Notes under the pieces: model-generated | Seen by the model: only the letters and a program-made list of their open reading frames with translations | Database searches by the model: none | What the model was told of the DNA's origin: nothing | Assembly: GCA_015056155.1 (NCBI GenBank) | Contig: SVGU01000001.1 | Coordinates: 1 to 64,000, forward strand | Source: Clostridiales bacterium | GTDB lineage: Bacteria > Bacillota > Clostridia > Christensenellales > Aristaeellaceae | Direction: 5' to 3' | DNA: 64,000 nt | Part shown: in pieces, positions 18,418-49,752 of the stretch | Layout of the letters: each line of letters begins with the position of its first letter | Numbering within the stretch: the stretch's first letter is position 1 | Position numbers and translations under genes: made by a program

Positions 18418-18460
18418 CGCTGCACAGGAATGCACCGGTGTATTCCTGTACAGCGATTTT
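18418..18460 (+). terminator. Near-perfect 38-bp palindrome followed by ATTTT
   Basis: CGCTGCACAGGAATGCACC / GGTGTATTCCTGTACAGCG. Confidence 0.7.
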
Positions 18461-18489
18461 GCGCGCCGGGGCATGACGAGGAGGACGCG

Positions 18490-26326: not shown

Positions 26327-26360
26327 GCGCGGGCAGAATTTGACAGAGGATGTGCTGATC

Positions 26361-27533: not shown

Positions 27534-27562
27534 GCACCTGATCATCGCTTGCCAAGGAGGCA

Positions 27563-28677: not shown

Positions 28678-28687
28678 GGTGTCAGCA

Positions 28688-29743: not shown

Positions 29744-29754
29744 TATCTGAAATT

Positions 29755-29799
29755 GCCCTGATGTGCCCTTCGCCTGCCGGCGCGCGCGTCAGGGCTTTG
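29755..29799 (+). terminator. Candidate intra-operon terminator
   Basis: GCCCTGA...TCAGGGC followed by tttgt. Confidence 0.5.
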
Positions 29800-29849
29800 T
29801 GCCACCCGGAAAAATCGCAGCAAGAACAATGTACAGAGGGGATACCGCC

Positions 29850-32747
29850 ATGTCCAACAAGTACGCATCGCTGTTTCAGCAGCAATCCTATCAAGACGCA
29901 TGGATGACGCATGTGCAGACGCTGAAGGGACGTTTTCCCGTGTGGGATTACATCATCCTGACGGCCTCCAACGAGGATCAGGCGCGGGCGTACCGCGAGC
30001 AGATCGACTACCGCCTGCGCGGCGGCTGCCTGCCGGCGCAGACCCATTATGCGGTGCTGCCGGACCGGGACGGCCTGCGCGTGGGCAGCGGCGGCGCGAC
30101 GCTGGGCGTGATCCGCTATGTGCATGAGCATGCGGGCACCTTCCGCGGCAAGCGGCTGCTGGTCATCCATTCCGGCGGCGACAGCAAGCGCGTCCCGCAG
30201 TATTCCGCCTGCGGCAAGCTCTTTTCGCCGGTGCCGCGCCTGCTGCCCGACGGGCGGCGCTCGACGCTCTTTGACGAGTTCATCATCGCCATGAGCGGCG
30301 TGGCGGCGCGTATCAACGACGGCATGCTCGTCTGCTCGGGCGATGTGCTGCTGCTGTTCAACCCGCTGCAGATCGACTTCTACTCCCGGGGCGCGGCGGC
30401 GCTGTCCATCAAGGAGGACGTGCAGACCGGTAAGGACCACGGCGTGTGGCTCAAGGGCGCGGGGGACGATGTGCAGGCCTTCCTGCACAAGCAGTCCGTG
30501 GAGACCCTGCAGGCCCGCGGCGCGGTGGACGAGCGCGGCAACGTGGACATCGACACCGGCTCGGTGATCTTCGATGCGAACATGCTCGAGAGCCTCTGGG
30601 GCCTGATCGACACGCCGGAGAAGTACGACGCGCTGGTCAATGAGCAGGCGCGGCTGTCCTTCTATGCGGATTTCCAGTACCCCCTGTCCGAGGAGGCCAC
30701 GCTGGAGAAATTCTATCTGGAGAAGCCGGAGGGGGATTTCACCCCGGAGCTGAAGCGCGGCCGCGAGCTGCTGTGGGAGGCGCTGCGCCCCTACCGGCTG
30801 AAGCTGATCCGACTGTCCCCGGCGTCCTTCATCCATTTCGGCACCAGCAGCGAGCTTCGCAGCCTGATGGCCGAGGGCGTGGACAGCTATGACTGCCTCG
30901 GCTGGGCGCGCCGGGTCAACTGCAACCGCGAGTGCCCGGATTTCGCCGCCAGCAACAGCTACATTTCCGCCCGTGCGCAGATCGGCGCGGGCTCCTATGT
31001 GGAGGACAGCTACATCCATCACGGCTCCGTGGTGGGGGAGGGCTGCATCGTTTCCGGCGTGACGCTGGACGGGCAGACGGTTCCTGCGGGGGCTGCGCTG
31101 CATGGCCTGAAGCTGCGGGACGGCCGCTTTGTCGTGCGGATGTACGGCGTGGCGGAGAATCCGAAGGAGCCGGCGGTGTTCGGACGGACGCTGCCCACCG
31201 CGCTTTGGGAGGCGCCCATTTACCCCGTGCGCGGAAGCATCCGCGAGGCCGTGGATGCGACGCTGGCCGCCTGCGAGGCCGGCTTCCCCGGCGGCGGGGA
31301 TTGCCTGTCCCTGAAGGACAGCTTCAACCTCGCGGATACCTCGGCCATCATCGACTGGCAGGAGCGCCTGGACGACAAGATCAAGGTGGAGAGCCTGCTG
31401 GCCGCCATCGACGCCCGCGCGCCGCTGGACGAGGCGGTGCAGGTCTTCCGCGGCCGCCTCAGCCCCCGGGCGGAGCGCATGCTCCTTCAGGAGGCGCAGC
31501 GGCTGGATGAATCGCAGATGCAGCCCTTCGGCCGGAAGATCCGCATCTACTATGCGCTGGCGAAGCTGTCCGGGAAGGAAGAATACACCGGCGGCTGCTT
31601 CGGGACGATCTGCAGCGCGATCCTTGCCGACGCGGTGAACGGCGTGGCATGGGACAAGGAAGCGCGCATCGCGGAGGACGAGGTGGTCGTGCGCCTGCCC
31701 GTGCGCGTCAACTGGGGCGGCGGCTGGAGCGACACGCCTCCCTATTGCATGGAGCACGGCGGAACGGTGCTGAACGCCGCAGTCTCCCTCAACGGCGAGC
31801 TGCCGGTGGAGGCGGTCGTGCGCCGGGCAGAGACGGGGAAGATCATCCTCACCAGCGCGGACAACGGCTCCTATCAGGAATTCGATGACATCGAGCGCCT
31901 GCAGGACAGCTCGAACCCCTACGATCCCTTCGCCCTGCACAAGGCGGCGCTGATCGCCTGCGGGGTGATCCCGTACCGGGAGAAGATCTCCGTGCAGGAG
32001 ATCACCGAGCGCCTGGGCGGCGGCGTGTACCTGTCCACGCAGGTGATGGGTATCCCGCGCGGCAGCGGTCTGGGCACGTCCTCCATCCTTGCGGGCGCGT
32101 GCGTCAAGGCGATCATGCGCTTCCTCGGCAAAACGCCAACGGAGAACGAACTGTACAACCGCGTGCTGTGCATGGAGCAGATCATGTCCACCGGCGGCGG
32201 CTGGCAGGACCAGGTCGGCGGTCTGGCCCCCGGCATCAAGATGGTCACCAGCGAGCCCGGCATGCACCAGGTCATCACCTGCACGCCCCTGCGGATGACC
32301 GAGGCGGCGAAGGCGGAGCTGAACGAGCGCTTCTGCCTGATCTACACCGGACAGCGCCGACTGGCCCGGAACCTCCTGCGCGAGGTGGTGGGCCGCTACA
32401 TTTCCAGCACGCCCGACGCCCTCGCGGTGCTGGAGACGATCCAGCGCCTGGCCGTCCTGATGCGCTATGAGCTGGAAAAGGGCAACATCGACGGCTTTGC
32501 ACGCCTCCTCAGCGAGCACTGGGAGCAGTGCAAGATCCTCGATTCCGGCTGCACCAACACCTGCATCGACCAGATGATCAACGCCGTCAGCGACCTCGTC
32601 GCGGGCCACTTCATCTGCGGCGCGGGCGGCGGCGGCTTCCTGCAGGTGGTGCTGAAGAAGAGCGTGACCCCCGCGCAGCTGCAGGAGCGGCTGTATGAGG
32701 TCTTCCAGGACAGCGGCGCCTGCGTGTGGCGCTGTGCGCTGGTATAA
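29850..32747 (+). CDS. fkp: Bifunctional L-fucokinase / GDP-L-fucose pyrophosphorylase
   Basis: 965 aa: N-terminal fucose-1-P guanylyltransferase-like (SGGDSKRVPQYSACGKLFSP), C-terminal GHMP kinase (VNWGGGWSDTPPYCMEHGG, GIPRGSGLGTSSILAGA, CGAGGGGF). Confidence 0.9.
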   Translation: MSNKYASLFQQQSYQDAWMTHVQTLKGRFPVWDYIILTASNEDQARAYREQIDYRLRGGCLPAQTHYAVLPDRDGLRVGSGGATLGVIRYVHEHAGTFRGKRLLVIHSGGDSKRVPQYSACGKLFSPVPRLLPDGRRSTLFDEFIIAMSGVAARINDGMLVCSGDVLLLFNPLQIDFYSRGAAALSIKEDVQTGKDHGVWLKGAGDDVQAFLHKQSVETLQARGAVDERGNVDIDTGSVIFDANMLESLWGLIDTPEKYDALVNEQARLSFYADFQYPLSEEATLEKFYLEKPEGDFTPELKRGRELLWEALRPYRLKLIRLSPASFIHFGTSSELRSLMAEGVDSYDCLGWARRVNCNRECPDFAASNSYISARAQIGAGSYVEDSYIHHGSVVGEGCIVSGVTLDGQTVPAGAALHGLKLRDGRFVVRMYGVAENPKEPAVFGRTLPTALWEAPIYPVRGSIREAVDATLAACEAGFPGGGDCLSLKDSFNLADTSAIIDWQERLDDKIKVESLLAAIDARAPLDEAVQVFRGRLSPRAERMLLQEAQRLDESQMQPFGRKIRIYYALAKLSGKEEYTGGCFGTICSAILADAVNGVAWDKEARIAEDEVVVRLPVRVNWGGGWSDTPPYCMEHGGTVLNAAVSLNGELPVEAVVRRAETGKIILTSADNGSYQEFDDIERLQDSSNPYDPFALHKAALIACGVIPYREKISVQEITERLGGGVYLSTQVMGIPRGSGLGTSSILAGACVKAIMRFLGKTPTENELYNRVLCMEQIMSTGGGWQDQVGGLAPGIKMVTSEPGMHQVITCTPLRMTEAAKAELNERFCLIYTGQRRLARNLLREVVGRYISSTPDALAVLETIQRLAVLMRYELEKGNIDGFARLLSEHWEQCKILDSGCTNTCIDQMINAVSDLVAGHFICGAGGGGFLQVVLKKSVTPAQLQERLYEVFQDSGACVWRCALV

Positions 32748-33099: not shown

Positions 33100-35217
33100 G
33101 TGGATAAGATCAAACAGATTTTCAAGAGTGCAGCAAGGGACTGGTGGATCGCTGCGCTGGATATCGTCGCGGTCAACGCGGCGTATTTTCTGGCGCTGCT
33201 GATCCGCTTCTATGTCAATTTTGAGTTCCGCCCGACGGTCACCTTCTATCTGACCGATTTCGCGACCTTTGCGCCCTTCTACACGGTCCTGTGTCTGGTC
33301 GTGTTCGCCGCCTTCCACCTCTACGGCGGCATGTGGAAGTACGCGGGCCTCAACGACCTGAACCGCATCATCGCTGCCTCTGCGGCGACGACGGTCATCC
33401 AGGTGCTGGGCACGATGCTGACCGTGGGCCGCATGCCCGTGACCTACTACTTCATCGGCACGCTGATCCAGTTCGTGCTGATCGCGTCGATCCGCTTCGG
33501 CTACCGCTTCCTGCTGGTGGAGCAGAAAAAGCTCGCGAACCGCCGGAAGACCGGCGCTGCGACGATGGTCATCGGCGCGGGCGAGGCCGGCCGGTTCATG
33601 ATCCGCAACCTGGAGGAGAGCACGTCCTACCAGCCCGTGTGCGTGCTGGATGTGAAGAACGTCTCCCGCGGCCGGATGATGAACGGTATCCCGGTGTGCG
33701 GCGGCATGGACGACCTGGAGCGACTGCTGGACAAGTTCGGCATCAAGTGCGTCTTCATCGCCGAGCCCCTGCTGCAGCCGGAGATCAAGGAGCAGATCAC
33801 CCGCCTGTGCAGCGAGCGCAAGCTCGAAATGCAGGACCTGGGCTACTCCTTCTACATGAACGAAAGCGAGGCGGAGGTCCCCGCGAAGGCGATCGAGGCG
33901 ACCAGCGTGAAGCCCGACGGCAAGCGCGCCATCCCCTTCAGCCCCCCGGACATCAGCGAGAGCGAGATCTCCGAGGCGGTGGAGGCCATGCGTTCCGGCT
34001 GGATCACTACCGGCCCCCGCACGAAGCTGCTGGAGCGCCGCCTGGCGGCCTTCATCGACACCGGCTGCGTGGACGTCGAGGCAGGCGATGAGTACAGCAA
34101 CCGCGTGGTCTGCCTGAACTCCGCCACGGCGGCGGAGGAACTGAACCTGCGCGTGCTGGGCGTGGGCCCGGGCGACGAGGTGATCGTGCCCGCCTTCACC
34201 TACACGGCCTCTGCGTCCGCGGCGATCCACTGCGGCGCGACGGTGAAGTTCGTCGATATCCAGAAGGACGGCGACAGCGTCACTCACATGCCCGAGATGG
34301 ATTACGAAGCGCTGGAAAAGGCCATCACCCCGAAGACCAAGGCGATCATCACCGTCGATCTGGCGGGCATCGTCTGCGATTATGAGCGCGTGTTCGACAT
34401 CGTGGAGCGCAGGAAGAACCTGTTCACGCCCATCGAGTCTGACGGCACGCCCCTGCGTGACCTTTCCTCCCGCATCCAGAAGGCGCTGGGCCGCGTGGCG
34501 GTCATTTCCGACTGCGCGCACGGTCTGGGCGCATCCCGCGTGTTCCGGGGCGAGAAGAAGTACGCCGGCGCCATCGCGGACATGACCTCCTTCAGCTTCC
34601 ACGCGGTGAAGAACTTCACCACCGCCGAGGGCGGCGCGAGCGCGTGGCGTCCCTTCAATGGCGTGGACAACGCGGAGATCTACAAGATGTTCCAGCTGCT
34701 GTCCCTCCACGGCCAGAACAAGGACGCCCTGGCCAAGACGAAGCTGGGCGCGTGGGAGTACGACATCATCGGACCGTGGTACAAGTGCAACATGACGGAC
34801 ATCATGGCCGCCATCGGCCTGCGCCAGCTGGACCGCTATCCGGGTCTGCTGGAGCGCCGCGTGGAGATGATGAAGAAGTACGACGCGGTCTGCGACGAGC
34901 TGGGCGTGAGCCACCTGGTGCACCACACCGGTGACATGGACAGCTCCAACCACCTCTACATCGTCCGCATCCCCGGCGTCACGGCGGAGCAGCGCAACGA
35001 GATCATCGAGAAGATGGCCAAGCGCGGCGTGGCTACCAACGTCCACTACAAGCCCCTGCCCATGATGACGGCCTACGGCAAGGACTGCTCCGGCTATCCC
35101 AATGCCTACGATTACTACCATAACCTGATCACCCTGCCGCTGCACACGCTCCTGTCCGACGCGGATGTGGCGTATGTGTGCGACAACTTCCGCGAGGTCG
35201 TGAAGGAATACATCTGA
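33100..35217 (+). CDS. Fusion: CapD/FlaA1-type TM + Rossmann module :: DegT/DnrJ/EryC1/StrS aminotransferase
   Basis: N-terminal TM bundle and MVIGAGEAGRFMIRNL; C-terminal SGWITTGPRTKLLERRLAAF, CLNSATAAEELNLRVLGVGPGDEVIVPAFTYTASASA, SFSFHAVKNFTTAEGG. Confidence 0.9.
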   Translation: MDKIKQIFKSAARDWWIAALDIVAVNAAYFLALLIRFYVNFEFRPTVTFYLTDFATFAPFYTVLCLVVFAAFHLYGGMWKYAGLNDLNRIIAASAATTVIQVLGTMLTVGRMPVTYYFIGTLIQFVLIASIRFGYRFLLVEQKKLANRRKTGAATMVIGAGEAGRFMIRNLEESTSYQPVCVLDVKNVSRGRMMNGIPVCGGMDDLERLLDKFGIKCVFIAEPLLQPEIKEQITRLCSERKLEMQDLGYSFYMNESEAEVPAKAIEATSVKPDGKRAIPFSPPDISESEISEAVEAMRSGWITTGPRTKLLERRLAAFIDTGCVDVEAGDEYSNRVVCLNSATAAEELNLRVLGVGPGDEVIVPAFTYTASASAAIHCGATVKFVDIQKDGDSVTHMPEMDYEALEKAITPKTKAIITVDLAGIVCDYERVFDIVERRKNLFTPIESDGTPLRDLSSRIQKALGRVAVISDCAHGLGASRVFRGEKKYAGAIADMTSFSFHAVKNFTTAEGGASAWRPFNGVDNAEIYKMFQLLSLHGQNKDALAKTKLGAWEYDIIGPWYKCNMTDIMAAIGLRQLDRYPGLLERRVEMMKKYDAVCDELGVSHLVHHTGDMDSSNHLYIVRIPGVTAEQRNEIIEKMAKRGVATNVHYKPLPMMTAYGKDCSGYPNAYDYYHNLITLPLHTLLSDADVAYVCDNFREVVKEYI

Positions 35218-35227
35218 GGTGCTTTGC

Positions 35228-35848
35228 ATGTACAAGAAGTTTGGTAAGCGTCTGCTGGACATCGTGATTTCGCTGATCGCCCTGCCCTTTGTGGGTCTGG
35301 TGATCCTGATCTTCGCGCCCATCATCTACCTGACGGACAAGGGCCCGGTCTTCTACAACGCCCCCCGCCGCGGCATGAACGGCAAGAACTTCAAGATGTT
35401 CAAGCTGCGCTCGATGAAGGTGAATTCCCCCGTCCTCAAGAATGCGGACGGCTCCACCTACTCCGGCGACGATGATCCCCGCGTGACGAAGATCGGCCGG
35501 ATCATGCGCAAGCTGTCCATCGACGAGCTGCCGCAGATCCTCAACGTCCTGATCGGCGACATGAGCTTTGTCGGCCCCCGTCCGAATCTGGCGACCGGCA
35601 ACTACGCCGAGTTTGACGAGGTGCGCAAGAAGCGCCTGACCGTGCGTCCCGGCATCACCGGCTACTCCCAGGCGTACTTCCGCAATTCCATCACGCAGGA
35701 CGAGAAGTTCGCCAACGATTGCTACTATGTGGATCACCTGTCCTTCATCTTCGATGTGAAGATCCTGATCCAGACGGTGCTGAGCGTCGTTGGCTCCAAG
35801 AACATCAACTACAAGGAAAGCAACCAGAAGAAGGATGTGGCGCAGTGA
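35228..35848 (+). CDS. Priming sugar transferase (PglC-like monotopic phosphoglycosyl transferase)
   Basis: KRLLDIVISLIALPF, FKMFKLRSMK, SIDELPQILNVLIGDMSFVGPRP. Confidence 0.93.
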   Translation: MYKKFGKRLLDIVISLIALPFVGLVILIFAPIIYLTDKGPVFYNAPRRGMNGKNFKMFKLRSMKVNSPVLKNADGSTYSGDDDPRVTKIGRIMRKLSIDELPQILNVLIGDMSFVGPRPNLATGNYAEFDEVRKKRLTVRPGITGYSQAYFRNSITQDEKFANDCYYVDHLSFIFDVKILIQTVLSVVGSKNINYKESNQKKDVAQ

Positions 35849-37029
35849 TGAAGCGGCTGCTTGTGATCGGCGCCTCTGTCCTGCAGGTGCCGGCGATCCG
35901 CCGGGCGAAGGAAATGGGCCTGTATGTGGCGGTGGCGGACTTCAACCCCAACGCCGTGGGCATTCCGCTGGCGGATGAATACTACAACGTCTCGACCATT
36001 GACGAAGAGGGCGTGTACCAGGCCGCGAAGGATTTCGGGGCCGACGGCATCATGACCCTGGCGACCGATATGCCCATGCGCGCGCTGGCCTACGCCTGCG
36101 GAAAGCTGGGGCTGGTCGGTCTGGCCTATGACAGCTCTGTCAAGGCCACGGACAAGGGCGAGATGATCAAGACATTCGAAGCCGCGGGTGTTGAGCACCC
36201 GTGGTATCAGATCATCCCGGACGGGGCAAAACCCGCTCCGGGAAGTTATGCGTTTCCCCTGATCACCAAGCCTACGGATAATTCCGGCAGCCGCGGCGTG
36301 ATGCTGGTGCATAACGAGGAGGAGCTGGCCGCAGCGCTGAGCTACTCCTCGGAGAACGGCCGCCGGGGCGACGTGATCATGGAGGAGTACATGCAGGGCC
36401 CGGAGGTCAGCGTGGAGGTCATGGTGACGGGCGGGGTGCCCCATGTGCTGCAGATCACCGACAAGCTGACGACCGGCGCGCCGCATTTCGTGGAGATGGG
36501 GCATTCCCAGCCCTCGCGCCTGCCGGAGGAAGCGCAGGCGGCCATCCGCGATCTGGCCAGCCGCGCGGCGCTGTCCGTGGGCGTTGAGAACGGCCCGGCG
36601 CACGTGGAGATCATCCTGACGAAGGACGGCCCGAAGATGGTCGAGCTGGGCGCGCGCATGGGCGGCGACTGCATCACGACCCATCTGGTGCCCCTGTCCA
36701 CCGGCATCGACATGGTGGGCAATACCATCCGCATCGCCCTGGGCGAGGAGCCCGACCTTACGCAGAAGTTGCACAAGGGCTCTGCGATCCGCTACTTCAG
36801 CGTGCCCTGTGGCGTGATCCGCGCGATCGAGGGCGTGGAGGAAGCGCGGCAGGTCCCGGGCGTGCAGGAGATCACCTTCGTCAAGCAGGTGGGCGATACC
36901 GCCGGGGACATCGGCAGCAGCACCGACCGCGTGGGCTTCGTCATCGCCCAGGCTGACTCGGCGCAGGAGGCTGTGCGGGTCTGCGAGCAGGCGATGGAAC
37001 GCGTGCATATCGAAATTGAGCAAGTGTGA
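35848..37029 (+). CDS. ATP-grasp domain protein (A)
   Basis: Pre-ATP-grasp N-domain MKRLLVIGASVLQVPAIRRAKEMG; ITKPTDNSGSRGVMLV, VMEEYMQGPEVSVEVMV, MVELGARMGGD. Confidence 0.9.
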   Translation: MKRLLVIGASVLQVPAIRRAKEMGLYVAVADFNPNAVGIPLADEYYNVSTIDEEGVYQAAKDFGADGIMTLATDMPMRALAYACGKLGLVGLAYDSSVKATDKGEMIKTFEAAGVEHPWYQIIPDGAKPAPGSYAFPLITKPTDNSGSRGVMLVHNEEELAAALSYSSENGRRGDVIMEEYMQGPEVSVEVMVTGGVPHVLQITDKLTTGAPHFVEMGHSQPSRLPEEAQAAIRDLASRAALSVGVENGPAHVEIILTKDGPKMVELGARMGGDCITTHLVPLSTGIDMVGNTIRIALGEEPDLTQKLHKGSAIRYFSVPCGVIRAIEGVEEARQVPGVQEITFVKQVGDTAGDIGSSTDRVGFVIAQADSAQEAVRVCEQAMERVHIEIEQV

Positions 37030-37043
37030 AAGACTGAGCATTC

Positions 37044-38300
37044 ATGAAAAAACTGCTGATTCTCGGGGGCTTCCCCCAGATGATCGAGATCGTGATGACG
37101 GCGCGGAGGATGGGGGTGTACACCATCGTTGCGGACCGGGATGCAGCGTCGCCGGCCAAACGGTTCGCCGATAAGGCGGTCAATATCAGTACGGACCGGA
37201 TCGACGCGCTGGAGGCCCTTTGCAGGGCGGAAGGCGTGGACGGCGTGCTCAACGGCTTTGAGGATTTCAACATCCATATCGCCTGCGAGCTTTGCCAGCG
37301 CCTGTCCCTTCCCTTCTACGGTACGCGCCGGCAGATCGACACGGTGACGGACAAGCTGCGCTTCAAGGAGGCCTGCCGGGCGTACGGCGTGCCGGTGATC
37401 GAGCAGTATTCCATGGAGGCGGCGCTGGCGGAGGGGAAGTACCCCTACATCATCAAGCCCGCGGACAGCTACGGCAGCCGCGGCATCATCATCTGCCGCG
37501 ATGCGGCGGAGCTGCGCGCAGGCGTTGAGAAGGCGGAGGCGGCGTCCAGGACGCATCGCACGATCATCGAGCGCTTCGTCGATACGGATCATGGGACGGA
37601 GCTGTTTTACACCATCGTCAACGGCCATATCCACCTGACGGTCACGGCGGACCGCTATACGATGCGCACCGGGAGCACGACGGTGCCGCTGCCGGTGGCG
37701 GAGGTCTTTCCTTCCAGACACCGCGACGCCATGGTCGGGCAGGTGGATCCGCAGATCCGCGCGATGCTGACCGGCATGGGCATCCGCAACGGTCTTGTGC
37801 TGGTGCAGGCGCTGTGGGATCAGCGGGACGGCAGGGATGAGTTCTTCGTGTACGAAATGGCCTACCGCTTCACCGGTGAACAGCATTACCGCCTGGTGGA
37901 AAAGCAGCACGGCGTCCATCTGGGGGAGATGATGATCCGCCTGGCGCTGGGGGAGGACGTCTCCGACTATGATACGGCGCTGCTGGATGACGAGGCGTTT
38001 GTTCGCCCGGCGATCAATCTGGCGGTGCTGCTGAGGCCCGGCGTCATCGGGCAGATCAGCGGCCTGGAAAAGGTCTACCAGATTGATGAGCTGATCTCCT
38101 ATAACCGGACCCATGAGGAACGCGATGAGATCCGCCCCAGCGGCGATTATTCCCATATGCTGATCCGGGTGAACATGGTCGCCGATAGTGAAGCAGCGCT
38201 GTGCCGGGCGGTGGATGAGGTGGCGGCGTACGTCAGCGTAACATCCGACCAGGGTGAGGATATGCTGATCACGCGCTTCCATCTGCCAGAGGTGATATGA
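37044..38300 (+). CDS. ATP-grasp domain protein (B)
   Basis: MKKLLILGGFPQMIEIVMTARRMG; YIIKPADSYGSRGIIIC, FVYEMAYRFTGEQHY. Confidence 0.88.
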   Translation: MKKLLILGGFPQMIEIVMTARRMGVYTIVADRDAASPAKRFADKAVNISTDRIDALEALCRAEGVDGVLNGFEDFNIHIACELCQRLSLPFYGTRRQIDTVTDKLRFKEACRAYGVPVIEQYSMEAALAEGKYPYIIKPADSYGSRGIIICRDAAELRAGVEKAEAASRTHRTIIERFVDTDHGTELFYTIVNGHIHLTVTADRYTMRTGSTTVPLPVAEVFPSRHRDAMVGQVDPQIRAMLTGMGIRNGLVLVQALWDQRDGRDEFFVYEMAYRFTGEQHYRLVEKQHGVHLGEMMIRLALGEDVSDYDTALLDDEAFVRPAINLAVLLRPGVIGQISGLEKVYQIDELISYNRTHEERDEIRPSGDYSHMLIRVNMVADSEAALCRAVDEVAAYVSVTSDQGEDMLITRFHLPEVI

Positions 38301-38827
38301 TGAAACTGGTGAATCTGGTCAGATGCTGGCACGAGCGGCTGTTCTGCCTGACGCGCAGGGATGCGGTGGCGCAGACGGCTTCGGTGCCGGTGAAGCTTGT
38401 GCCGGTGACGGAAGAGAATGCCGACCTTGTGGGGACGCTGCGCGGCGCGGAATATGTGAGCCAGTTCCGGCAGCAGCTGGCCCTTGGCGACTTCGGATAC
38501 TACGCGTGCGTGGGTGACGAGCCGGTCGCATATGGCTGGGCGAAGCATCCGGGCTCGAAGGATTATTTTTTCCGCATCGGGGAAGGATGCTGCTACCTGT
38601 GCCGGTTCTTCGTGCATGAGAAAATGCGCGGAAAGCGGATCTATCCGCAGCTGATCTGCGCCCTGATGGCGCGGGAAACGGATGCGGAACGGTTCTGGAT
38701 CGCGGTGGAAAGAGGCAATGAAGCCTCGGAGCGCGGATTGAAAAAAGTTGGTTTCACGTTTGTGAAGGAGTTTTCGTTTTTCCGGGTCTTGGGCAGAACG
38801 CTGAACATGCACCGCCTGACGCCCTGA
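38297..38827 (+). CDS. GNAT-type acetyltransferase
   Basis: C-terminal GNAT pattern YLCRFFVHEKMRGKRIYPQLICALM...NEASERGLKKVGF; start overlaps previous stop. Confidence 0.75.
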   Translation: MMKLVNLVRCWHERLFCLTRRDAVAQTASVPVKLVPVTEENADLVGTLRGAEYVSQFRQQLALGDFGYYACVGDEPVAYGWAKHPGSKDYFFRIGEGCCYLCRFFVHEKMRGKRIYPQLICALMARETDAERFWIAVERGNEASERGLKKVGFTFVKEFSFFRVLGRTLNMHRLTP

Positions 38828-38892
38828 TCCATGCGCCGGGGGAGCCCGGCACAGCGGCATGACGAGCTGAATACGAAAGGGAGAATCACGAT

Positions 38893-39960
38893 ATGAACAG
38901 ATCCTACATGAAGGCGCGGACCATGGTGCTCAATACGAAGCTGGGCAAGATGCTCCGCCTGTGGATGCAGAAGCGTTCCTACAAGCTGGAGAAGGCGCAG
39001 AAGATCGCGCGCGAAGCCTACGGCAGCGAGAAGACGCCCGCGGAGATCGAGGCGATCGCGAAAGACATGATGACCGAAGCGAAGAAGTACAACGTCGGCT
39101 TCGATGAGTACGTCATGTACCATTTCGACAAGCGGGATCAGGCGGACCGCCGTCTGTTCATCCCCACCCGCGAGCGCGCGCTGTACTGCGAGCGCCTGAA
39201 CGACCCGAAGAACCAGATGATCTTCGACGACAAGGGCGAGACGTACAAGGTCTTCGGCAAGTACTTCAAGCGCGACCTGACCGAGGTGGTCGGGTGGAGC
39301 GCGGAGGCGACGGAGAGCTTCCGCAAGTTCGTGGAGAAGCACAACCGCTTTATCATCAAGCCCTTCAACGGCGGCAATGGCCGCGGGATCCGCATTGCCG
39401 ACTGCGAGAAGGAAGGCGGCTTCGAGAAGTTGTGCGAGACGCTCAAGACGCAGTATGCCTCCGGCTTTGTGGCAGAGGAGCTGATCCGTCAGGTGAAGGA
39501 ACTGAGCGCCGTGCATCCCGATTCGGTCAACACGATGCGCATCTTCACGGTCCGCTTTGATGACCGCGTGATGTTCCTGCCCTGCGCGTGGCGCGTTGGC
39601 CGTGGCGGCAACTGCGTGGACAACGGCGGCTCCGGCGGTATCTTCTGCGCGCTCAACGACGAGGGCGTGATTATCTCCACCTGCGACGAGAAGGGCCGCT
39701 CCTACGATGTGCATCCCGACACGAAGCACCCTCTGATCGGCTTCAAGGTGCCGCAGTTTGAGGAAGCGAAGGCGCTCGCAGCGGAGCTGGCGCAGGTTGT
39801 GCCCAGCAACCGCTACTGCGGCTGGGACCTGGCGCTGACGGATGACGGCTGGGTCATGCAGGAAGGCAACTGGCAGGGCGGCATTGTGGCCTTCCAGTGC
39901 CCGCTGCAGAAGGGCTACCGCAAGGAAATGGACGCCATCATGGATGAGCTGGGGCTGTAA
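38893..39960 (+). CDS. Sugar-transfer-associated ATP-grasp protein (C)
   Basis: FIIKPFNGGNGRGIRI, HPDSVNTMRIFTV, GRGGNCVDNGGSGGI, WDLALTDDGWVMQEGNWQG. Confidence 0.87.
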   Translation: MNRSYMKARTMVLNTKLGKMLRLWMQKRSYKLEKAQKIAREAYGSEKTPAEIEAIAKDMMTEAKKYNVGFDEYVMYHFDKRDQADRRLFIPTRERALYCERLNDPKNQMIFDDKGETYKVFGKYFKRDLTEVVGWSAEATESFRKFVEKHNRFIIKPFNGGNGRGIRIADCEKEGGFEKLCETLKTQYASGFVAEELIRQVKELSAVHPDSVNTMRIFTVRFDDRVMFLPCAWRVGRGGNCVDNGGSGGIFCALNDEGVIISTCDEKGRSYDVHPDTKHPLIGFKVPQFEEAKALAAELAQVVPSNRYCGWDLALTDDGWVMQEGNWQGGIVAFQCPLQKGYRKEMDAIMDELGL

Positions 39961-39988
39961 AGCAGGGACAGAAGGGAGCGATGATTTG

Positions 39989-41074
39989 ATGAATATGTTC
40001 AGTATTCAACAGATGTATTTCGGGTTGTACGAGAAATGCAAGAAGATGATGATCTCCCGATATGTCCGCAAGGTCGCCAAGGGATACACTTCTCCTTCCT
40101 TTCAGTTGACAAAGGAACAAAAACGGCAGATACTGGAGTTTTACAAGCCGTACGCGAAGATCAACCTGGCTTTTCATCGCTTCTTTACGGAGAAGTCGGG
40201 CGAGTTCTCGCCGTATTACCTGCCCAACGACATGTACATCAATAAGGTTGATGAATACTTTAACAACCGCACCGAATCACAGGTGATGGACAACAAGTGC
40301 TACTACCCGATGATTTTTGACCGCAATGGTGTGAAGCAGGCGGAATGCGTTGCTCTGCGGATGAATGGTTTCTGGTTTACGCCGGAGCAGCAGATGCTGA
40401 CGAAGGAGGAGCTCGAGAGGATCCTGAATGCGGAGCCAGCTCTTTTCGTGAAGGAAGCAACCCGGTCCTACGGCGGCAAGGGAGTCCAGTATATCGAACG
40501 GCCTGCAAACGGTGACTTGTTCTCGCTTGTGATGGAAAAGATTCACCCGAATGCCGGCGATATTGTGGTCCAAAAGCCGTTGAAGCAGCATCCGGCGCTT
40601 GCAGCTTTCAATCCGAGCAGTGTCAATACTATTCGTGTTGTCACGCTCTTGAGTAAGGATGGCGTGAAGGTCTATTCCAGCGTACTGAAAACGGGCGAAA
40701 AGGGCTCGAAGGTTGATAACGGCACCAGTGGTGGAATGACTGTTGGCATTACCGGCGACGGAAAACTGCGTAAGTATGCCCGTAAGGTCAGTGGTGAGCA
40801 GTTTGACAGGCATCCGGCCAGCGGTGTTGTCTTCGAAAACTATGAATTACCATGCTTTGATGCTGTGCTGGAGCTCGTGAAGAAGGCGCATCCTCTTGTG
40901 CCGCATTTCAGGCTGGTTTCGTGGGATGTTGCGGTAGATGAGAATGGCGATGCTGTGCTGATCGAAGCAAATCTCGCAAAGGGCAGCATCAACCTTCACC
41001 AGCTGAACAACGGCCCCCTCTTTGGTGAGGACACGAAGAAGATTCTGGACGAAGTATTCGGGAAAAACAAGTGA
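39989..41074 (+). CDS. Sugar-transfer-associated ATP-grasp protein (D), lower GC
   Basis: LFVKEATRSYGGKGVQYI, NPSSVNTIRVVTLL, GSKVDNGTSGGMTVG, WDVAVDENGDAVLIEANLAKG. Confidence 0.85.
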   Translation: MNMFSIQQMYFGLYEKCKKMMISRYVRKVAKGYTSPSFQLTKEQKRQILEFYKPYAKINLAFHRFFTEKSGEFSPYYLPNDMYINKVDEYFNNRTESQVMDNKCYYPMIFDRNGVKQAECVALRMNGFWFTPEQQMLTKEELERILNAEPALFVKEATRSYGGKGVQYIERPANGDLFSLVMEKIHPNAGDIVVQKPLKQHPALAAFNPSSVNTIRVVTLLSKDGVKVYSSVLKTGEKGSKVDNGTSGGMTVGITGDGKLRKYARKVSGEQFDRHPASGVVFENYELPCFDAVLELVKKAHPLVPHFRLVSWDVAVDENGDAVLIEANLAKGSINLHQLNNGPLFGEDTKKILDEVFGKNK

Positions 41075-41097
41075 TCGATTCGATCAGGAGGGTTCAC

Positions 41098-42405
41098 ATG
41101 GATCTGAAAGGCAAGACGCTTTTGTTGATGGGCGGCGGCGCATATGCCCGGGATATTGAGCGTTACAAGAAGGCGAAGGACTTCCGCATCGTGGCGCTGG
41201 GTCGGGACGCGGACACCCCCATTTCACGCATAGCCGATGCATTCTATCAGGTCAATACGCAGGATGTGGAGGGCGTGTGCGAGGTCGTGCGCAAGGAGAA
41301 GGTGGACGGCATTTTCGTCGGCTCCTCCGAGGTGAATATCGCTCCGGCGACCCGCGTGAGCGAGATGACCGATGCGCGCTTCTATGTCACCCGCGAGCAG
41401 TGGGACGTGCTGGCGAATAAGGCGCTGTTCAAGGAGTACTGCCGGAAATACAATGTGCCGGTGGTGCCGGAATACCGCCTGCCGGAGAATTACACCCGCG
41501 CGGATGTGGAGAAGCTGCCCTTCCCCGTGATGCTCAAGCCCACCGACAGCTCCGGCGCTCGCGGCATGAACGCCTGCTACAACGCGGATGATTTCGATGC
41601 GCTGTATCAGGAGGCGCTCCGCTGGTCTAAGAAGAAGGAAGTCATCATCGAGGAGCTTATCGTCGGCGCGGATGAGGTGTTCTTCCAGTACACCCTGCAG
41701 GACGGCGTCTGCTCCCTGACGTCCTGCTTCACCAAGGTGTTCGTGCAGAGCGAGAACAAGAAGCTGATCCTGCCGATCTTCCATATGTACCCCAGCAAGT
41801 ACATCGACGAGTATTTCGACGGCGTGCATGAGGGTGTGTGCCGGATGTTCGAGGCGATCGGCGTCCGCGACGGCGTGATGACCCTGCAGAGCTTCTATCA
41901 GAACGGCCGCTTCTACATCTTTGAGGCGGGCTTCCGTATGGGCGGCGCGCAGAACTATATCCTCAGCGAGTACCAGAACGGCACGAATTCGCTGGAATAC
42001 ATGATCAACTATGCCCTGACCGGCAGCATGGACGATTCGCCGATCATCGAGCGCGACAATGCGCGCTTCCGCCATCCCTGCTGTAACTATTACGTCGGCC
42101 TCAAGCCCGGAACCATCGCGAAGATGGGCGGCGTGGACGAGGTCCGCGCGATGGACGGGGTGCTGAATGTGACGGTCATGTGCGGCGAGGGCGAGGTCAT
42201 CGAGGACACGAACGCACTGGAGCGGATCTGCCTGCGCATCCACGTGGTGGGCGAAACGGCCCAGAAGCTGGCGCAGAACCTCGTGGACATCAGCCGGACG
42301 CTCAAGATCATTTCCACCGAAGGCGAGGAGATGCAGCTGGAGCCGCTGGTGTATGAGCGGTGCCTGCAGGCGATCGGTGACACGACGATCTACTCGGGAG
42401 AGTAA
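41098..42405 (+). CDS. ATP-grasp domain protein (E)
   Basis: GKTLLLMGGGAYARDIERYKKA; PVMLKPTDSSGARGMNAC, VIIEELIVGADEVFFQYT, FYIFEAGFRMGGAQN. Confidence 0.9.
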   Translation: MDLKGKTLLLMGGGAYARDIERYKKAKDFRIVALGRDADTPISRIADAFYQVNTQDVEGVCEVVRKEKVDGIFVGSSEVNIAPATRVSEMTDARFYVTREQWDVLANKALFKEYCRKYNVPVVPEYRLPENYTRADVEKLPFPVMLKPTDSSGARGMNACYNADDFDALYQEALRWSKKKEVIIEELIVGADEVFFQYTLQDGVCSLTSCFTKVFVQSENKKLILPIFHMYPSKYIDEYFDGVHEGVCRMFEAIGVRDGVMTLQSFYQNGRFYIFEAGFRMGGAQNYILSEYQNGTNSLEYMINYALTGSMDDSPIIERDNARFRHPCCNYYVGLKPGTIAKMGGVDEVRAMDGVLNVTVMCGEGEVIEDTNALERICLRIHVVGETAQKLAQNLVDISRTLKIISTEGEEMQLEPLVYERCLQAIGDTTIYSGE

Positions 42406-42435
42406 ATTTACACATGCTTGAGAGGAGTTAACGGA

Positions 42436-43839
42436 ATGCCCATTGAGTTCCTGTATCTGGCTGCAGTGTTCGCCGTGGCGATCATCGGCTTTTCGATCCT
42501 GAAACGCCCGCTGTACGAGTGCATGCTGGCCGCGTTTGTTGTGCTGCTGACGGTGACGTCGATCTGGCCGAATGCCCCGATCACTGCGGAGAATCCCTGC
42601 ACCTGGGCAAAGGTTGGCGAATACATCTGGGAGGCAATGACAGAGGACAGCCTGTATGTGATCATCGTCTTTGTGATCTCCGCTGCGCTGCTGTCCAAGA
42701 CGAGCGTCATTGACGACTGCATCGCGATCATCCTGTCCATCTTCGGCCGGATGCGCGGCGGCGCCGGCTTCGTAGCGATCATCGGCAGCTCCTATATGGG
42801 CAGCCTGTCCGGCTCCGGCCCCGGCAACGTGGCGACCACGGGCGTCTTTACCATTCCGGCGATGAAGCACTCGGGCTTCCCGCCCCATCTGGCGGCCAAT
42901 GTCGAGGCGCACGCGAGCACCATGGGCAATATGATTCCGCCTGCGGGCATGATCGCTACGGCGTTTGCGGCGCTCAATGCGCTGTACCCGGATCAGTACA
43001 CCATGCCGCAGTACTGGATGCTTCTGTGGGGCATTGCGCTGTGGTTCATCGTGCAGCGAATCGTGACGCTGTATCTGATGTGCCGGTATTACAAGGTGGA
43101 GCCGATGAAGAAGGAAGACATCCCCAGCCTGCGGCATGCTGTGAAGCATGGCTGGAAGGCCGTGTTCCTGCCGATCATCGTGTTCCTGCCCTTCATGCTG
43201 ACGACGGAGTATGCGGATTTCTTCACCAGCCGCCTGGGCGCGGCAGGTTCCAAGGCGCTCAACAGCAGTCTGCTGCTGTTCATCCCTTCGCTGATCGTCA
43301 TCTGCGGCATTCTGCTTTCCGGGAAGGAGACCCGGAAGAAGATGAGCATGCCCTACATGGTGGAGAGCATCACCAAGGGCATGCTGAAGGTGGTGCCGAC
43401 CTCGGCGCTGGTGCTGTTTGCGTATTTCGTGAGCAATGTCTTTGCCGACATCAATGTGGAAAAGGCGATCGGCGAGTATGTGAGCGCCTTCAACATGCCG
43501 GGTTGGGCGCTGGCGATCATCGTCCCGCTGTTTATGGCGGTGCTGGGCATGCTGCTTCCCGGTTCCACGCAGGTGAAGATCTTCGGCGGCATCATCATCT
43601 CGATCTTTGCCGCGGCGGGAACGAATCCCATGCTGGCGGCTGGTATGCTGCCCTGCATCTGCGGCGCCATGCACGGCGTCACGCCGCCCTATTGCGCCTG
43701 TGTGTATACGGGTATGGGCATCGCGCAGGCTGAACTGGCGCCGACGCTGAAGAACTGCATGATCTGGGTGACGCTGCATTATCTGCTGTCCGTCCTGATC
43801 CTGAGCGGCTGGCTGCCTGTCTGGGGCCTGATTGTGTAA
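42436..43839 (+). CDS. TRAP-type transporter large permease-like protein
   Basis: Polytopic; SGSGPGNVATTGVFTIPAMKHSGFPPHLAANVEAHASTMGNMIPPAGMIATAF matches DctM-family signature. Confidence 0.75.
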   Translation: MPIEFLYLAAVFAVAIIGFSILKRPLYECMLAAFVVLLTVTSIWPNAPITAENPCTWAKVGEYIWEAMTEDSLYVIIVFVISAALLSKTSVIDDCIAIILSIFGRMRGGAGFVAIIGSSYMGSLSGSGPGNVATTGVFTIPAMKHSGFPPHLAANVEAHASTMGNMIPPAGMIATAFAALNALYPDQYTMPQYWMLLWGIALWFIVQRIVTLYLMCRYYKVEPMKKEDIPSLRHAVKHGWKAVFLPIIVFLPFMLTTEYADFFTSRLGAAGSKALNSSLLLFIPSLIVICGILLSGKETRKKMSMPYMVESITKGMLKVVPTSALVLFAYFVSNVFADINVEKAIGEYVSAFNMPGWALAIIVPLFMAVLGMLLPGSTQVKIFGGIIISIFAAAGTNPMLAAGMLPCICGAMHGVTPPYCACVYTGMGIAQAELAPTLKNCMIWVTLHYLLSVLILSGWLPVWGLIV

Positions 43840-43851
43840 GGGGAGCTTGTT

Positions 43852-44127
43852 ATGAGAGAAAAACTGTTTCAGAAGCTGAACAAGATTTACGGCATCGTGA
43901 TGAGCATCGCGTTCTTCGGCGGTATCGTGCCGCTGCCCTTTTTCCTGGCGGCGCTGGTCATCGGCGGCAGCGTGGGCGAGAACATGACGGTGTTCTTCTA
44001 CAAGCAATTCTATCCCTGGGTCATCGCGCTGGCTTCCATCGCTGTCCTGATCGGAACGGTCGCGATGTATGTCGGCAAGGTGGAAGGCCTGTCTGTCAAG
44101 AAAGTAACGGCCGAGGAAGACAAGTAA
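43852..44127 (+). CDS. Small two-TM membrane protein
   Basis: 91 aa, two hydrophobic helices, directly downstream of permease. Confidence 0.65.
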   Translation: MREKLFQKLNKIYGIVMSIAFFGGIVPLPFFLAALVIGGSVGENMTVFFYKQFYPWVIALASIAVLIGTVAMYVGKVEGLSVKKVTAEEDK

Positions 44128-44169
44128 GCGAGCGTGCGCGCTGCGCATGCAGGAATGGAGAGTACAACG

Positions 44170-45435
44170 ATGCGGATTCTGAGACTGCCCGGCTACTATT
44201 CCCCGGAACAGATTTCCAGTACACACCTGTCCAGGGATCTGAGTGAAGCGTATAAGAAGGAAGGCTTTTCCTTTGTCGATTACGTGCCCACGCCGACGCG
44301 CGGTGTGACCGACGAGGTGCGGCGGGAGTACAGCAAGCGGAAGTATGAAGAGCTTGATGGCGGCCGGATCATTGTCCACCGCTTCTCCATGTTCCGCGAG
44401 GGAAGGAATCCCATCCAGCGTGCGCTCCGCTACGTGCTGGTCAACGTGATCCAGTATTTCAAGGGGAGCAGGGCGAAGGACGTCGACCTGATCTACTCGG
44501 GCAGCACCCCGCCCACCCAGGGCCTGCTGTGCGGCCTGGTGAAGAAGCGCCTCAAGGTGCCCTTTGTGTACAACCTGCAGGACATCTTCCCGGATTCCCT
44601 CGTGAATGCAAAGATGACGAAGAAGGGCTCCCTCATCTGGAAGATCGGCCGGAAGATCGAGGACTTCACCTACCGCAGCGCGGACAGGATCATCGTTATC
44701 AGCGAGGATTTCAAGCGCAACATCATGGAAAAGGGCGTTCCGGAGGAGAAGATCGTCCTCATCCCCAACTGGGTCGATACCGGGAAGGTATACCCCGTGG
44801 CGCGGGAGGACAATGTGCTCTTTGACCGCTACGGTCTGGACCGGAACGGCTTCTACGTCTGCTACAGCGGCAACATCGGCCATTCGCAGAATCTGGAGCT
44901 GCTGCTGGACGCGGCGCGGGCGCTGAAGACCGAGCTGCCGGACATGCGCTTTGTGCTGATCGGCGAGGGCGCGGCGAAGGAAGAGCTGGAGAAGACCGTC
45001 GCGGCAGAGGGCCTGGACAACGTGATCATGCTGCCCTTCCAGCCCTACGAGGAGATCGCGCACGTGTTCAGTCTCGGCGATGCGGGCATGATCATCTCCA
45101 AGCCGGGCATCGGCGGAAGCTCCGTGCCCAGCAAGACCTGGTCCGTCATGGCAGCCGAGCGGCCGATCATTGCCTCCTTCGACGAGGACAGCGAGCTGGC
45201 CAAACTGGTCAACGCGCAGCAGGTCGGCTATGTGGCGCCCGCCGGCGACAAGCAGGCGCTGGTCGATGCGGTGAAGAAGGTCTATCAGGATCGGGCTGCC
45301 GCAGCAGCGCTGGGTCGCGTGGGCCGCAAGTACCTGATCGAAAACCTCTCCAAGGAAAAGTGCACCGGGATGTACGTCAAGACGATCCTGGAGGCCGGCA
45401 AAATGAAGGATAAAGTGAGAAGCGGGAAGGAATAA
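44170..45435 (+). CDS. GT4 glycosyltransferase (WbuB-like)
   Basis: LPGYYSPEQISSTHL, YNLQDIFPDSL, CYSGNIGHSQNLELLLDAA, IISKPGIGGSSVPSKTWSVMAAERPI. Confidence 0.88.
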   Translation: MRILRLPGYYSPEQISSTHLSRDLSEAYKKEGFSFVDYVPTPTRGVTDEVRREYSKRKYEELDGGRIIVHRFSMFREGRNPIQRALRYVLVNVIQYFKGSRAKDVDLIYSGSTPPTQGLLCGLVKKRLKVPFVYNLQDIFPDSLVNAKMTKKGSLIWKIGRKIEDFTYRSADRIIVISEDFKRNIMEKGVPEEKIVLIPNWVDTGKVYPVAREDNVLFDRYGLDRNGFYVCYSGNIGHSQNLELLLDAARALKTELPDMRFVLIGEGAAKEELEKTVAAEGLDNVIMLPFQPYEEIAHVFSLGDAGMIISKPGIGGSSVPSKTWSVMAAERPIIASFDEDSELAKLVNAQQVGYVAPAGDKQALVDAVKKVYQDRAAAAALGRVGRKYLIENLSKEKCTGMYVKTILEAGKMKDKVRSGKE

Positions 45436-46683: not shown

Positions 46684-47547
46684 TCACCACTGCCTGCGGA
46701 ATTCTGTCGGGGAGACGCCCTCGATCTTGCGGAAGGCACGGGAGAAGTAATTCGCCTCGGGCATGCCGCAGCGGGCGCCGATTTCCTCCACGGACAGCTC
46801 CGTGAAGCGCAGGAGCTCCTTCGCGCGGGAAATGCGCAGGGACAAAAGATAATTCACGATCGTGGAGCCGTATTGCTCCCGGAACAATCGCGTGAGATGA
46901 AACTTGTTGATGAAGAATTTCTCAGCAAGGTCATCCAGCGCGATTTTTTCGTTGTAGTGGCTGTCCAGATAGACCTTCACGTCGGCGAGGCGGCTGCGGC
47001 TGCTTGCGCCGGAGCGGTGGGCGGCGGGTCGCCAGCCGGCCTGCATCAGAAGGGACAGCAGCGCGCAGAGCAGCTCGTTGATGTGCATGTCGCGCACGTG
47101 GTCATCTGCGGCGGCGGTCTCCTGCAGCTGTGCGAGCAGGTCAAGATAAGGCTGAACATCGCCGGGGCGGAAGCAGGGGAGACCGCCGCGGTCGACGTAT
47201 TTCTGGTAGATGCCGTGCATGGTGGGGCCGTCAAAATGCGCCCATGCCAGCGACCAGAGCTTCCGGGAGGTCGCGTGGCTGTACGCCCTGCGGCAGTCGA
47301 TGAACACGCAGCTGCCCCTGCTGAGCGCATGGACCGCGCCGTCATAGGTCAGCTCGCCCTCGCCCTCCAGCACGACGAAGAACAGGTAGGACGCAAGGTC
47401 GCTGCGCTGGCTCCTGTGGGGGCTGAGCGCGCGGAGCCTGCCGACCTCCTGCAGGTGCACAAGGCAGCTGCGTGCAAAGGCGGACGGGGTGTACAGAATG
47501 CGCCGGGAATCGACCTGCTGCGGGTCGCGGAATGTGAGCTCGCTCAT
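46684..47547 (-). CDS. AraC family transcriptional regulator
   Basis: N-terminal cupin-like sensor; C-terminal double [39 protein letters not shown]...[28 protein letters not shown]. Confidence 0.9.
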
Positions 47548-47582
47548 GCGTGGGCCTCCTGTCGGGTTCGCTGCTTCCAGTA

Positions 47583-47606
47583 TGACACAGGATTCCACAT
47601 GTGTCA
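47583..47606. promoter_or_regulatory. Candidate operator inverted repeat in AraC/gmd divergent region
   Basis: TGACACA-10 bp-TGTGTCA. Confidence 0.5.
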
Positions 47607-47725
47607 AGATAGTGCTAATGAAAGGCAACATTGCCTATGGTAATCCGGCTGGAATGCTGTATAATGGACATCGTGCAGCAATGCATTTTCCGCTGAATCT
47701 GATTTTTACAAGGAGTAGATCGTAT

Positions 47726-48769
47726 ATGAAGAAGGCGCTTATCACCGGCATCACGGGTCAGGACGGCTCTTATCTGGCCGAGCTCCTGCTGGACAAGGGC
47801 TACGAGGTGCACGGCATCACCCGCCGCGCGTCCATCAGCAACACCGCCCGCATCGACCACATCCGCAGCCGTATCACCCTGCATGACGGCGACCTGACGG
47901 ATTCCTCCAGCCTCATCCGCATCATCGGCCTGGTGCAGCCGGACGAGATCTACAACCTCGCCGCGCAGAGCCATGTGCAGGTGTCCTTCGACGTTCCCGA
48001 GTATTCCGGCGACGTGGACGCCCTGGGCGTGCTGCGCGTGCTGGAAGCCGTGCGCATCCTGGGCCTGAAGGACAAGTGCCGCATCTACCAGGCCTCCACG
48101 TCCGAGCTGTACGGCAAGGTCGAGGAGGTCCCCCAGAAGGAGACGACCCCCTTCCACCCCTACAGCCCCTACGCCGTCGCCAAGCAGTACGGCTTCTGGA
48201 TGGTGAAGGAGTACCGCGAGGCCTACGGTATGTTCGCCGTCAACGGCATCCTGTTCAACCATGAGTCCGAGCGCCGCGGCGAAAACTTCGTCACCCGCAA
48301 GATCACCCTGGCCGCCGGCCGCATCGCCGAGGGCATCCAGGATCACCTCGAGCTGGGCAACATGGACAGCCTGCGCGACTGGGGCTATGCCAAGGACTAC
48401 GTGGAGTGCATGTGGCTGATGCTGCAGCACGAGACCCCCGAGGATTTCGTCATCGCTACCGGCGAACAGCACACTGTGCGCGACTTCACCGAGAAGGCCT
48501 TCGCCGCCAACGGCATGACCATCCGCTGGGAGGGCACGGGCGTCGACGAGAAGGGCTACGACGCGGAGACCGGCAAGCTGCTGGTGAGCGTCAATCCGCA
48601 GTGGTTCCGTCCCACCGACGTGGACAACCTCTGGGGCGATCCCACCAAGGCGAAGACTGTCCTGGGCTGGAACCCGCAGAAGACCACCTACGCAGAGCTC
48701 GTGCGCATCATGGCCGAGCACGACCGCCAGCTGGCCAAGCGCGAGAAGGCCATGCTGAACGCCGAGTAA
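47726..48769 (+). CDS. gmd: GDP-mannose 4,6-dehydratase
   Basis: [52 protein letters not shown]. Confidence 0.95.
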
Positions 48770-48785
48770 AGAGAGGCGACAGACC

Positions 48786-49730
48786 ATGATGGAGAAGAAT
48801 GCGAAAATCTACGTCGCCGGCCACCGCGGCATGGTGGGCAGCGCCATCGTCCGCGAGCTGAACCGGCAGGGCTATACCAACATCATCACCCGCACCCACG
48901 CGGAGCTGGACCTGACCCGCCAGGACCAGGTGGAGGCCTTCTTCGCGGCGGAAAAGCCGGAGTACGTTTTCCTCGCCGCGGCCAAGGTCGGCGGCATCGT
49001 CGCCAACCAGAGCGCGCTGGCGGACTTCATGTATGACAACATGATGCTGGAGATGAACGTGATCCACGCCGCGTGGAAGAACGGCTGCAAAAAGCTGGAG
49101 TTCCTCGGCTCCTCCTGCATCTACCCGCGCCTTGCGCCCCAGCCCATGCCGGAAAGCTGCCTGCTGACCAGCGCGCTGGAGCCCACCAACGAGGCCTATG
49201 CGCTGGCGAAGATCAGCGGCCTGAAGTACTGCGAGTACCTCAACCGCCAGTACGGCACGGACTACATCAGCCTCATGCCCACCAACCTCTACGGCCCCAA
49301 CGACAACTACCACCCCACCCACAGCCACGTCCTGCCCGCGCTCATCCGCCGCTTCCATGAGGCGAAGGAGAACGGCCTGACCACCGTCACCTGCTGGGGC
49401 GACGGCAGCCCTCTGCGCGAGTTCCTCTACGTGGACGACCTGGCGAACCTGTGCGTGTTCCTGATGAACAACTACTCCGGGAACGAGACCGTCAACGCGG
49501 GCACGGGCAAGGAAGTGACCATCAAGGAGCTGACGGAGATCGTGGCGAAGGTCGTGGGCTACGAGGGCGAGATCCTCTGGGACGCCACCAAGCCCAACGG
49601 CACGCCCCGCAAGCTCCTGGACGTGAGCAAGGCCGAGAAGCTCGGCTGGAAGTACCGGACCGAGCTGGAGGACGGCGTGCGCCTGGCCTACGAGGACTTC
49701 CTGAACAATCCCATGCGTGCGGAGCGGTAA
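48786..49730 (+). CDS. fcl: GDP-L-fucose synthase
   Basis: [64 protein letters not shown]. Confidence 0.95.
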
Positions 49731-49752
49731 GCGCCGCAGAAAGGGGCATCTC

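Follow-up and report, generated by a model that had tools for sequence, protein, structure and literature searches.

ATP-grasp enzymes encoded in capsule gene clusters are of an already known kind. The TupA-like C-terminal domain of Cj1438 from Campylobacter jejuni is a proven capsule amidoligase (PMC11800379), and this was the only directly relevant case to emerge from literature searches that combined ATP-grasp enzymes with bacillosamine, UDP-4-amino sugars, or capsule TupA proteins. Here we examine a 64,000-nucleotide stretch of DNA from a Clostridiales bacterium of the Aristaeellaceae (contig SVGU01000001.1, positions 1 to 64,000), referred to as the window, in which a run of ATP-grasp ligase genes is followed by a DctM-type permease gene. 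The window encodes a protein (at 23513) of the same TupA-like kind as this Cj1438 domain, which creates amide linkages while the capsular polysaccharide is being built. However, in the C. jejuni system a small amine is joined to the carboxylate of a sugar (glucuronate), whereas a neighboring DegT aminotransferase gene in the window suggests that there the amine comes from the sugar. The available part of the C. jejuni report also makes no mention of a permease alongside, unlike the arrangement in the window.

Parts of this arrangement recall other described systems. Pgl diamino-sugar initiation (PglF, PglE, PglD, PglC) likewise involves a 4,6-dehydratase, an aminotransferase, and a monotopic phosphoglycosyl transferase (PGT), but at the place of acetylation by PglD the window has an ATP-grasp ligase and a GNAT acetyltransferase, and its aminotransferase carries a fused CoA_binding_3-like domain. 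No member of the PglD-type acetyltransferase family was found among the window genes scanned. The ligases BacD/YwfE, BL00235, and DdaF share with the window proteins the ATP-grasp core, certain Lys, Glu, and Arg positions, and a LAL_C2 domain in one ligase (AG1) and weakly in another (AG3). In contrast, the window ligases of this type, whose function is predicted from sequence, are distant in sequence, reside in a capsule operon, and have relatives fused to PGT and GNAT domains. Predictions for the PF14397 and TupA families reportedly originate from the ATP-grasp survey of Iyer et al. 2009.

The reading that we consider reasonably probable is that the genes listed below form a cassette that makes carboxylic-acid groups (amino-acid, peptide-like, or polycarboxylate) and attaches them to an amino sugar of a surface polysaccharide. 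All five ATP-grasp genes of the run, three of the CPSase/L-amino-acid-ligase type (AG1 to AG3) and two of the sugar-transfer-associated PF14397 type (ST1 and ST2), were recovered by Pfam search as the initial annotation had described them, interrupted by a GNAT gene and followed by the permease and a 91-amino-acid protein. The sixth, TupA-like ligase was recovered as well.

33100 to 35217, + strand: DegT/DnrJ/EryC1 sugar aminotransferase with an N-terminal CoA_binding_3-like domain (PF01041, E=3e-76)
35219 to 35848, + strand: bacterial sugar transferase, a monotopic PGT, which starts the lipid-linked sugar (PF02397, E=4e-58)
35848 to 37029, + strand: AG1, ATP-grasp ligase with LAL_C2 (ATP-grasp_4 E=2e-23, LAL_C2 2e-22)
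37044 to 38300, + strand: AG2, ATP-grasp ligase with a pre-ATP-grasp N domain (CPSase_L_D2 4e-9; orthologues in loci L043, L058, and L098)
38297 to 38827, + strand: GNAT acetyltransferase (PF00583, 6e-7; same position in L033, L043, L058, and L098)
38893 to 39960, + strand: ST1, sugar-transfer-associated ATP-grasp (PF14397, ATPgrasp_ST, E=3e-46)
39989 to 41074, + strand: ST2, sugar-transfer-associated ATP-grasp (PF14397, ATPgrasp_ST, E=1e-43)
41098 to 42405, + strand: AG3, ATP-grasp ligase adjoining the permease (CPSase_L_D2 6e-10, LAL_C2 7e-7)
42418 to 43839, + strand: DctM-type permease (DctM PF06808, E=6e-48)
43852 to 44127, + strand: small membrane protein, 91 amino acids (no Pfam family above cut-off)
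44134 to 45435, + strand: glycosyltransferase of GT4/GT1 type, last gene of the recurring cassette (orthologues after the permease in L043, L058, and L098)
23513 to 24379, + strand: TupA-like ATP-grasp, the sixth ligase (ATPgrasp_TupA PF14305, E=6e-42)

Every gene between 35848 and 44127 is open on the + strand at its annotated position, and the run reaches farther upstream, into the PGT and DegT genes. Neighboring genes either overlap or lie no more than 65 bp from each other, and the layout of the run from DegT to the small membrane protein is consistent with one operon. A TTG-extended start for AG1 (35719) was rejected because the ATG at 35848 overlaps the PGT stop codon.

Evidence that the ligases and the permease belong together comes from a set of 83 permease loci, comprising 80 found by scanning contigs for the permease, nearly all of them from metagenome-assembled genomes (MAGs) of Clostridia/Oscillospiraceae and many from ruminant guts, plus three from relatives. 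An AG-type gene lies within ~10 kb of the permease in 46 of these loci; two or more AG or ST genes are present in 25, and three or more in eight. When the same profiles were applied to 20-kb control stretches, AG genes appeared in one of 19 loci carrying TRAP_fused transporters and in two of 20 other PGT loci (Fisher p = 3.5e-5 and 1.7e-4, respectively, with related loci treated as independent). Among 101 genomes, such AGs occur in all five with the permease versus eight of the 96 without it. The comparison with related loci indicates that the association is not due to chance, and the co-conservation that the initial annotation called for is present.

The association has also survived changes in gene order. 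In the window and in 20 of the 83 other loci, an AG gene is the immediate upstream neighbor of the permease, on the same strand and nearly always less than 70 bp away, but elsewhere it is found across a LysR gene or downstream on the opposite strand. The permease-adjacent AGs fall into two deep clades, and the tree shows at least 10 changes of label; the idea that just one family of ligases goes with the permease was rejected on this ground. Because the arrangements differ and the AGs derive from two deep clades, the link has been kept or re-made through rearrangement.

A dense run of ATP-grasp genes might instead be a chance pile-up produced by the shuffling of capsule genes that share no common pathway. 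The numbers of AG and ST genes do differ between loci, and the third-position GC of ST2 (0.64) is below that of its neighbors, which suggests a recent arrival. However, the order degT-PGT-AG1-AG2-GNAT-AG3-permease-2TM-GT, in which 2TM is the small two-transmembrane protein and GT the glycosyltransferase, recurs in several MAGs (L043, L058, and L098) and in partial form in L033 and L052, the latter extending the run still further with its four ST genes. This order is maintained even with a permease of only 45% identity, and we give a chance origin very little credence.

The ligases themselves were compared with known families. LAL_C2 scores 79.6 bits in AG1 and 29.9 in AG3 against a Pfam cut-off of 29.4, with no match in AG2, and ST1 and ST2 score 158 and 150 bits against the curated PF14397 cut-off of 31.4. 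Because none of the window ligases reaches a curated NCBIfam cut-off, a substrate is not readable from family names. The closest solved relatives of AG1 include the L-amino acid ligases BL00235 and BacD, and the nearest folds to a structure model of ST1 (pLDDT 93) are the peptide or amino-acid ligases PsnB, ArgX, and RimK. Across 61 aligned AGs, two Lys, one Glu, and one Arg are invariant, and the E/Q and E/D positions that bind metal in ATP-grasp enzymes are conserved. In 33 ST proteins, K156, D312, E324, and N326 are invariant. Judged from these alignments, the catalytic residues of the cassette ligases are intact, and the concern that the AG or ST active sites might be dead can be set aside. 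A separate PF14397 gene (G000:C140:9184-9900 and its relatives) resides outside the capsule locus and is shared, usually as one copy, by many of the family's genomes.

Gene fusions offer the best evidence for where the ligases act. An AG or ST gene directly follows 17 of the 25 PGT genes in the locus set, the window included. At L120:1411-3222 on the minus strand, in a member of another family of the same order as the window organism, one 603-amino-acid frame joins a PGT to an AG1-type ligase, and a DegT gene is found directly upstream. At L121:1244-2965, also on the minus strand, an AG1-type ATP-grasp carries a fused N-terminal GNAT (Acetyltransf_3) domain. Because AG1 relatives are fused both to PGT and to GNAT, we infer that AG1 acts on the PGT product or its donor, which is to say the amino sugar made by DegT. 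An apparent AG-ST fusion in L122 was discarded because its open frame crosses a stretch of N.

These observations also bear on whether the ATP-grasp run might yield an unattached product, either a small molecule or a peptide-like natural product, for export by the permease, with the polysaccharide setting being incidental. Such a role would suit AG1 and AG3, which carry LAL_C2 and resemble the dipeptide ligases BacD and BL00235 and the dapdiamide synthase DdaF, and the permease might run outward. The PGT fusion with its upstream DegT and the frequent placement of ligases directly after PGT genes argue otherwise, as do the DegT (within ~10 kb in 32 of the 83 loci), PGT, and glycosyltransferase genes that recur around the permease. 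In addition, the best-matching TRAP relatives of the permease, by sequence as well as by fold, function in uptake. Export of a free product therefore seems distinctly improbable.

The permease is a DctM homologue. Its structure model (pLDDT 88.6) matches TRAP M domains best in Foldseek searches (IseQM first, also SiaQM), followed by dicarboxylate and sulfate transporters, and IseQM is its only sequence match in the PDB. The fold thus resembles carriers of organic and inorganic anions, including isethionate, sialic acid, dicarboxylates, and sulfate, and the model suggests that the permease may work like an organic-anion elevator transporter. TRAP transporters such as SiaQM, IseQM, and the TAXI-type fused DctMQ proteins share a homologous M domain and fold with it, and hhalign aligned it to 16 TRAP_fused proteins with a probability of 100, but to the M region only. 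The permease spans just this region, and no DctQ, either separate or fused, was detected. As the initial annotation had noted, no DctP-type binding protein adjoins it: neither the window nor any of the 83 loci has one of the DctP or TAXI kind beside the permease, the four weak TAXI-like matches in the loci lying at other positions, whereas the same neighbor method returned 14 related TAXI-like neighbors for the 19 TRAP_fused control loci (recognized from sequence rather than through a family scan). The host genome (2.9 Mb, fragmented, and 74% complete, with the window as contig C129) has no TAXI protein, and the one DctP sequence in it is a fragment at the edge of a different contig, although an unlinked binding protein could lie in the missing part.

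In place of these subunits, the small membrane protein directly follows the permease in all 79 loci with room for it. It gave no DctQ match among 40 members, no similarity to TRAP_fused proteins, and no match to any PDB chain, and searches provided no support for its being a shrunken DctQ or TRAP_fused C-terminus. An assignment to DUF3561 was dismissed because the match was below cut-off and in only one of the 40 members. Because it is without an adjacent DctP or TAXI protein and without a detectable DctQ, the permease falls outside the definition of a TRAP transporter, and the earlier label "TRAP-type" has to be given up for a DctM homologue in whose family the P and Q subunits are absent throughout and a distinct small partner is present.

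Family scans identify the surroundings of the cassette as a Wzx/Wzy-type polysaccharide locus, which also contains glycosyltransferases and the following genes.

Start 12784: LytR-CpsA-Psr protein
Start 14525: Wzz
Start 15472: tyrosine-kinase-like ATPase
16315 to 18366, + strand: Polysacc_synt_2 nucleotide-sugar 4,6-dehydratase, PglF/WbpM-like (PF02719, E=9e-116)
Start 18430: polysaccharide pyruvyl transferase
Start 19517: Wzy
Start 21974: flippase
24431 to 32747: nucleotide-sugar genes, upstream of DegT

The dehydratase at 16315 is the probable source of a 4-keto sugar. On the most likely reading, an acid brought in by the permease is joined by the ligases to a 4-amino sugar as polysaccharide assembly begins, although both the substrate and the direction of transport are things we infer. 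In such a scheme, the 4,6-dehydratase and DegT would produce a UDP-4-amino-4,6-dideoxy sugar, and AG1, together with GNAT, would acylate its amino group before or during PGT transfer to undecaprenyl phosphate. AG2, AG3, ST1, and ST2 might then attach additional residues or modify later sugars via acyl-phosphate intermediates, and the permease pair would bring in the carboxylate used by one ligase, most likely the adjacent AG3. The identity of the acid and its inward transport are the weakest steps of the proposal. The pathway first suggested for this locus, in which amide- or ester-linked substituents are placed on the polysaccharide, is thus supported in part, by co-conservation, intact active sites, and fusions that tie the ligases to the making of the first lipid-linked sugar; the linkage would be an amide or an ester.

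Other features of the locus deserve mention. An FrhB/FdhB-type iron-sulfur protein and the polysaccharide pyruvyl transferase are encoded close together (18430-21984). Two GDP-fucose routes coexist at 29763-32747 and 47489-51087, one a fucokinase/GDP-fucose pyrophosphorylase-like fusion and the other a set of ManC-, GMD-, and Fcl-like genes for de novo conversion of GDP-mannose to GDP-fucose. In a 910-amino-acid protein (9395-12127, minus strand), a TIR_2 domain occurs together with leucine-rich repeats of the BspA type. An AraC-family regulator with a cupin domain is encoded within the polysaccharide locus (46684-47631, minus strand), and the LysR gene common beside the permease in other loci is missing here.

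Clues to the nature of the acid come from loci other than the window. Genes for MmgE/PrpD proteins, often two, lie beside the permease in L038, L042, L053, L056, L073, and L074, four of which also have AG genes, and the closest relatives of these proteins are cis-aconitate decarboxylase and IDS-epimerase. A short thiamine pyrophosphate (TPP) enzyme is also encoded beside the permease in L042, L056, and L073, and L074 has a CitMHS-type transporter in addition. In L089, L102, and L104, genes for a DltB-like MBOAT protein and an AMP-ligase accompany a LysR-permease-partner module in three different arrangements. This pairing, which is not in the window's cassette, recalls Dlt D-alanylation, another way of putting an acid on a surface polymer. 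Because the permease elsewhere adjoins MmgE/PrpD genes or MBOAT and AMP-ligase genes, a carboxylate is favored as its substrate, perhaps a polycarboxylate. The polycarboxylate hint is a lead, given that it comes from other loci only and that no MmgE gene was found in the 74% complete assembly of the window's own genome.

Along with that absence, several observations weigh against polysaccharide acylation by the cassette. The loci are related, with the permeases forming only three groups at 60% identity, albeit each with AGs, and 48 groups at 80%, of which 29 have AGs. No ATP-grasp gene is present in the stretch examined for 37 of the 83 permease loci, and ATP-grasp capsule genes occur without the permease in genomes G055 and G049. 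One permease clade (L059-L068 and L070) resides without capsule genes in a conserved operon encoding an AtuA-like protein, DUF4387, an SSF symporter, the permease, and the small partner; a GntR/UTRA regulator was identified in L067 of this clade. Because the permease, initially described as "dedicated", also occurs outside capsule loci, it is not capsule-dedicated in every organism. Furthermore, the literature searched yielded no biochemical data on any cassette member.

Some of these points would fit a different arrangement, in which the permease and its partner are a separate, LysR-regulated module for carbon-source uptake that often lands in variable capsule loci, while the ATP-grasp enzymes use acids made in the cell. 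The loci without ATP-grasp genes, the LysR genes within 1.5 kb of the permease in 36 of 83 loci, and the catabolic-looking neighbors (MmgE/PrpD, the TPP enzyme, and an aldo/keto reductase) all speak for such a module. Yet ATP-grasp linkage far exceeds that of two controls, one consisting of other capsule-type loci with PGT genes, it persists through rearrangement, and a ligase is so often the immediate same-strand upstream neighbor of the permease. A separate uptake module is accordingly judged unlikely, and acylation of the polysaccharide by the cassette is retained as the preferred reading.

In the literature searched, outside of which most subscription papers lie, no description was found of such a density of ligases, of the PGT and GNAT fusions, or of a binding-protein-less DctM permease with a constant partner tied to ligases, and the permease pair linked to ATP-grasp enzymes seems undescribed. 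A more tentative idea, held with rather less than even confidence, is that the DctM-2TM pair represents a novel two-component family of organic-acid importers that is related to TRAP transporters, lacks both a binding protein and DctQ, and would feed environmental carboxylates into surface-polymer acylation, either by ATP-grasp amide ligation or by AMP-ligase and MBOAT transfer.

The analysis defines a family of DctM permeases that has a constant small partner and no binding protein, against the rule that TRAP permeases need one. The PGT-ATP-grasp fusion provides a concrete place to study acylation of the first sugar by an ATP-grasp enzyme. Overall, the cassette suggests that nutrient uptake and the capsule chemistry of gut bacteria are linked in a way that can be tested, with groups obtained from the diet or the host perhaps ending up on the coat.

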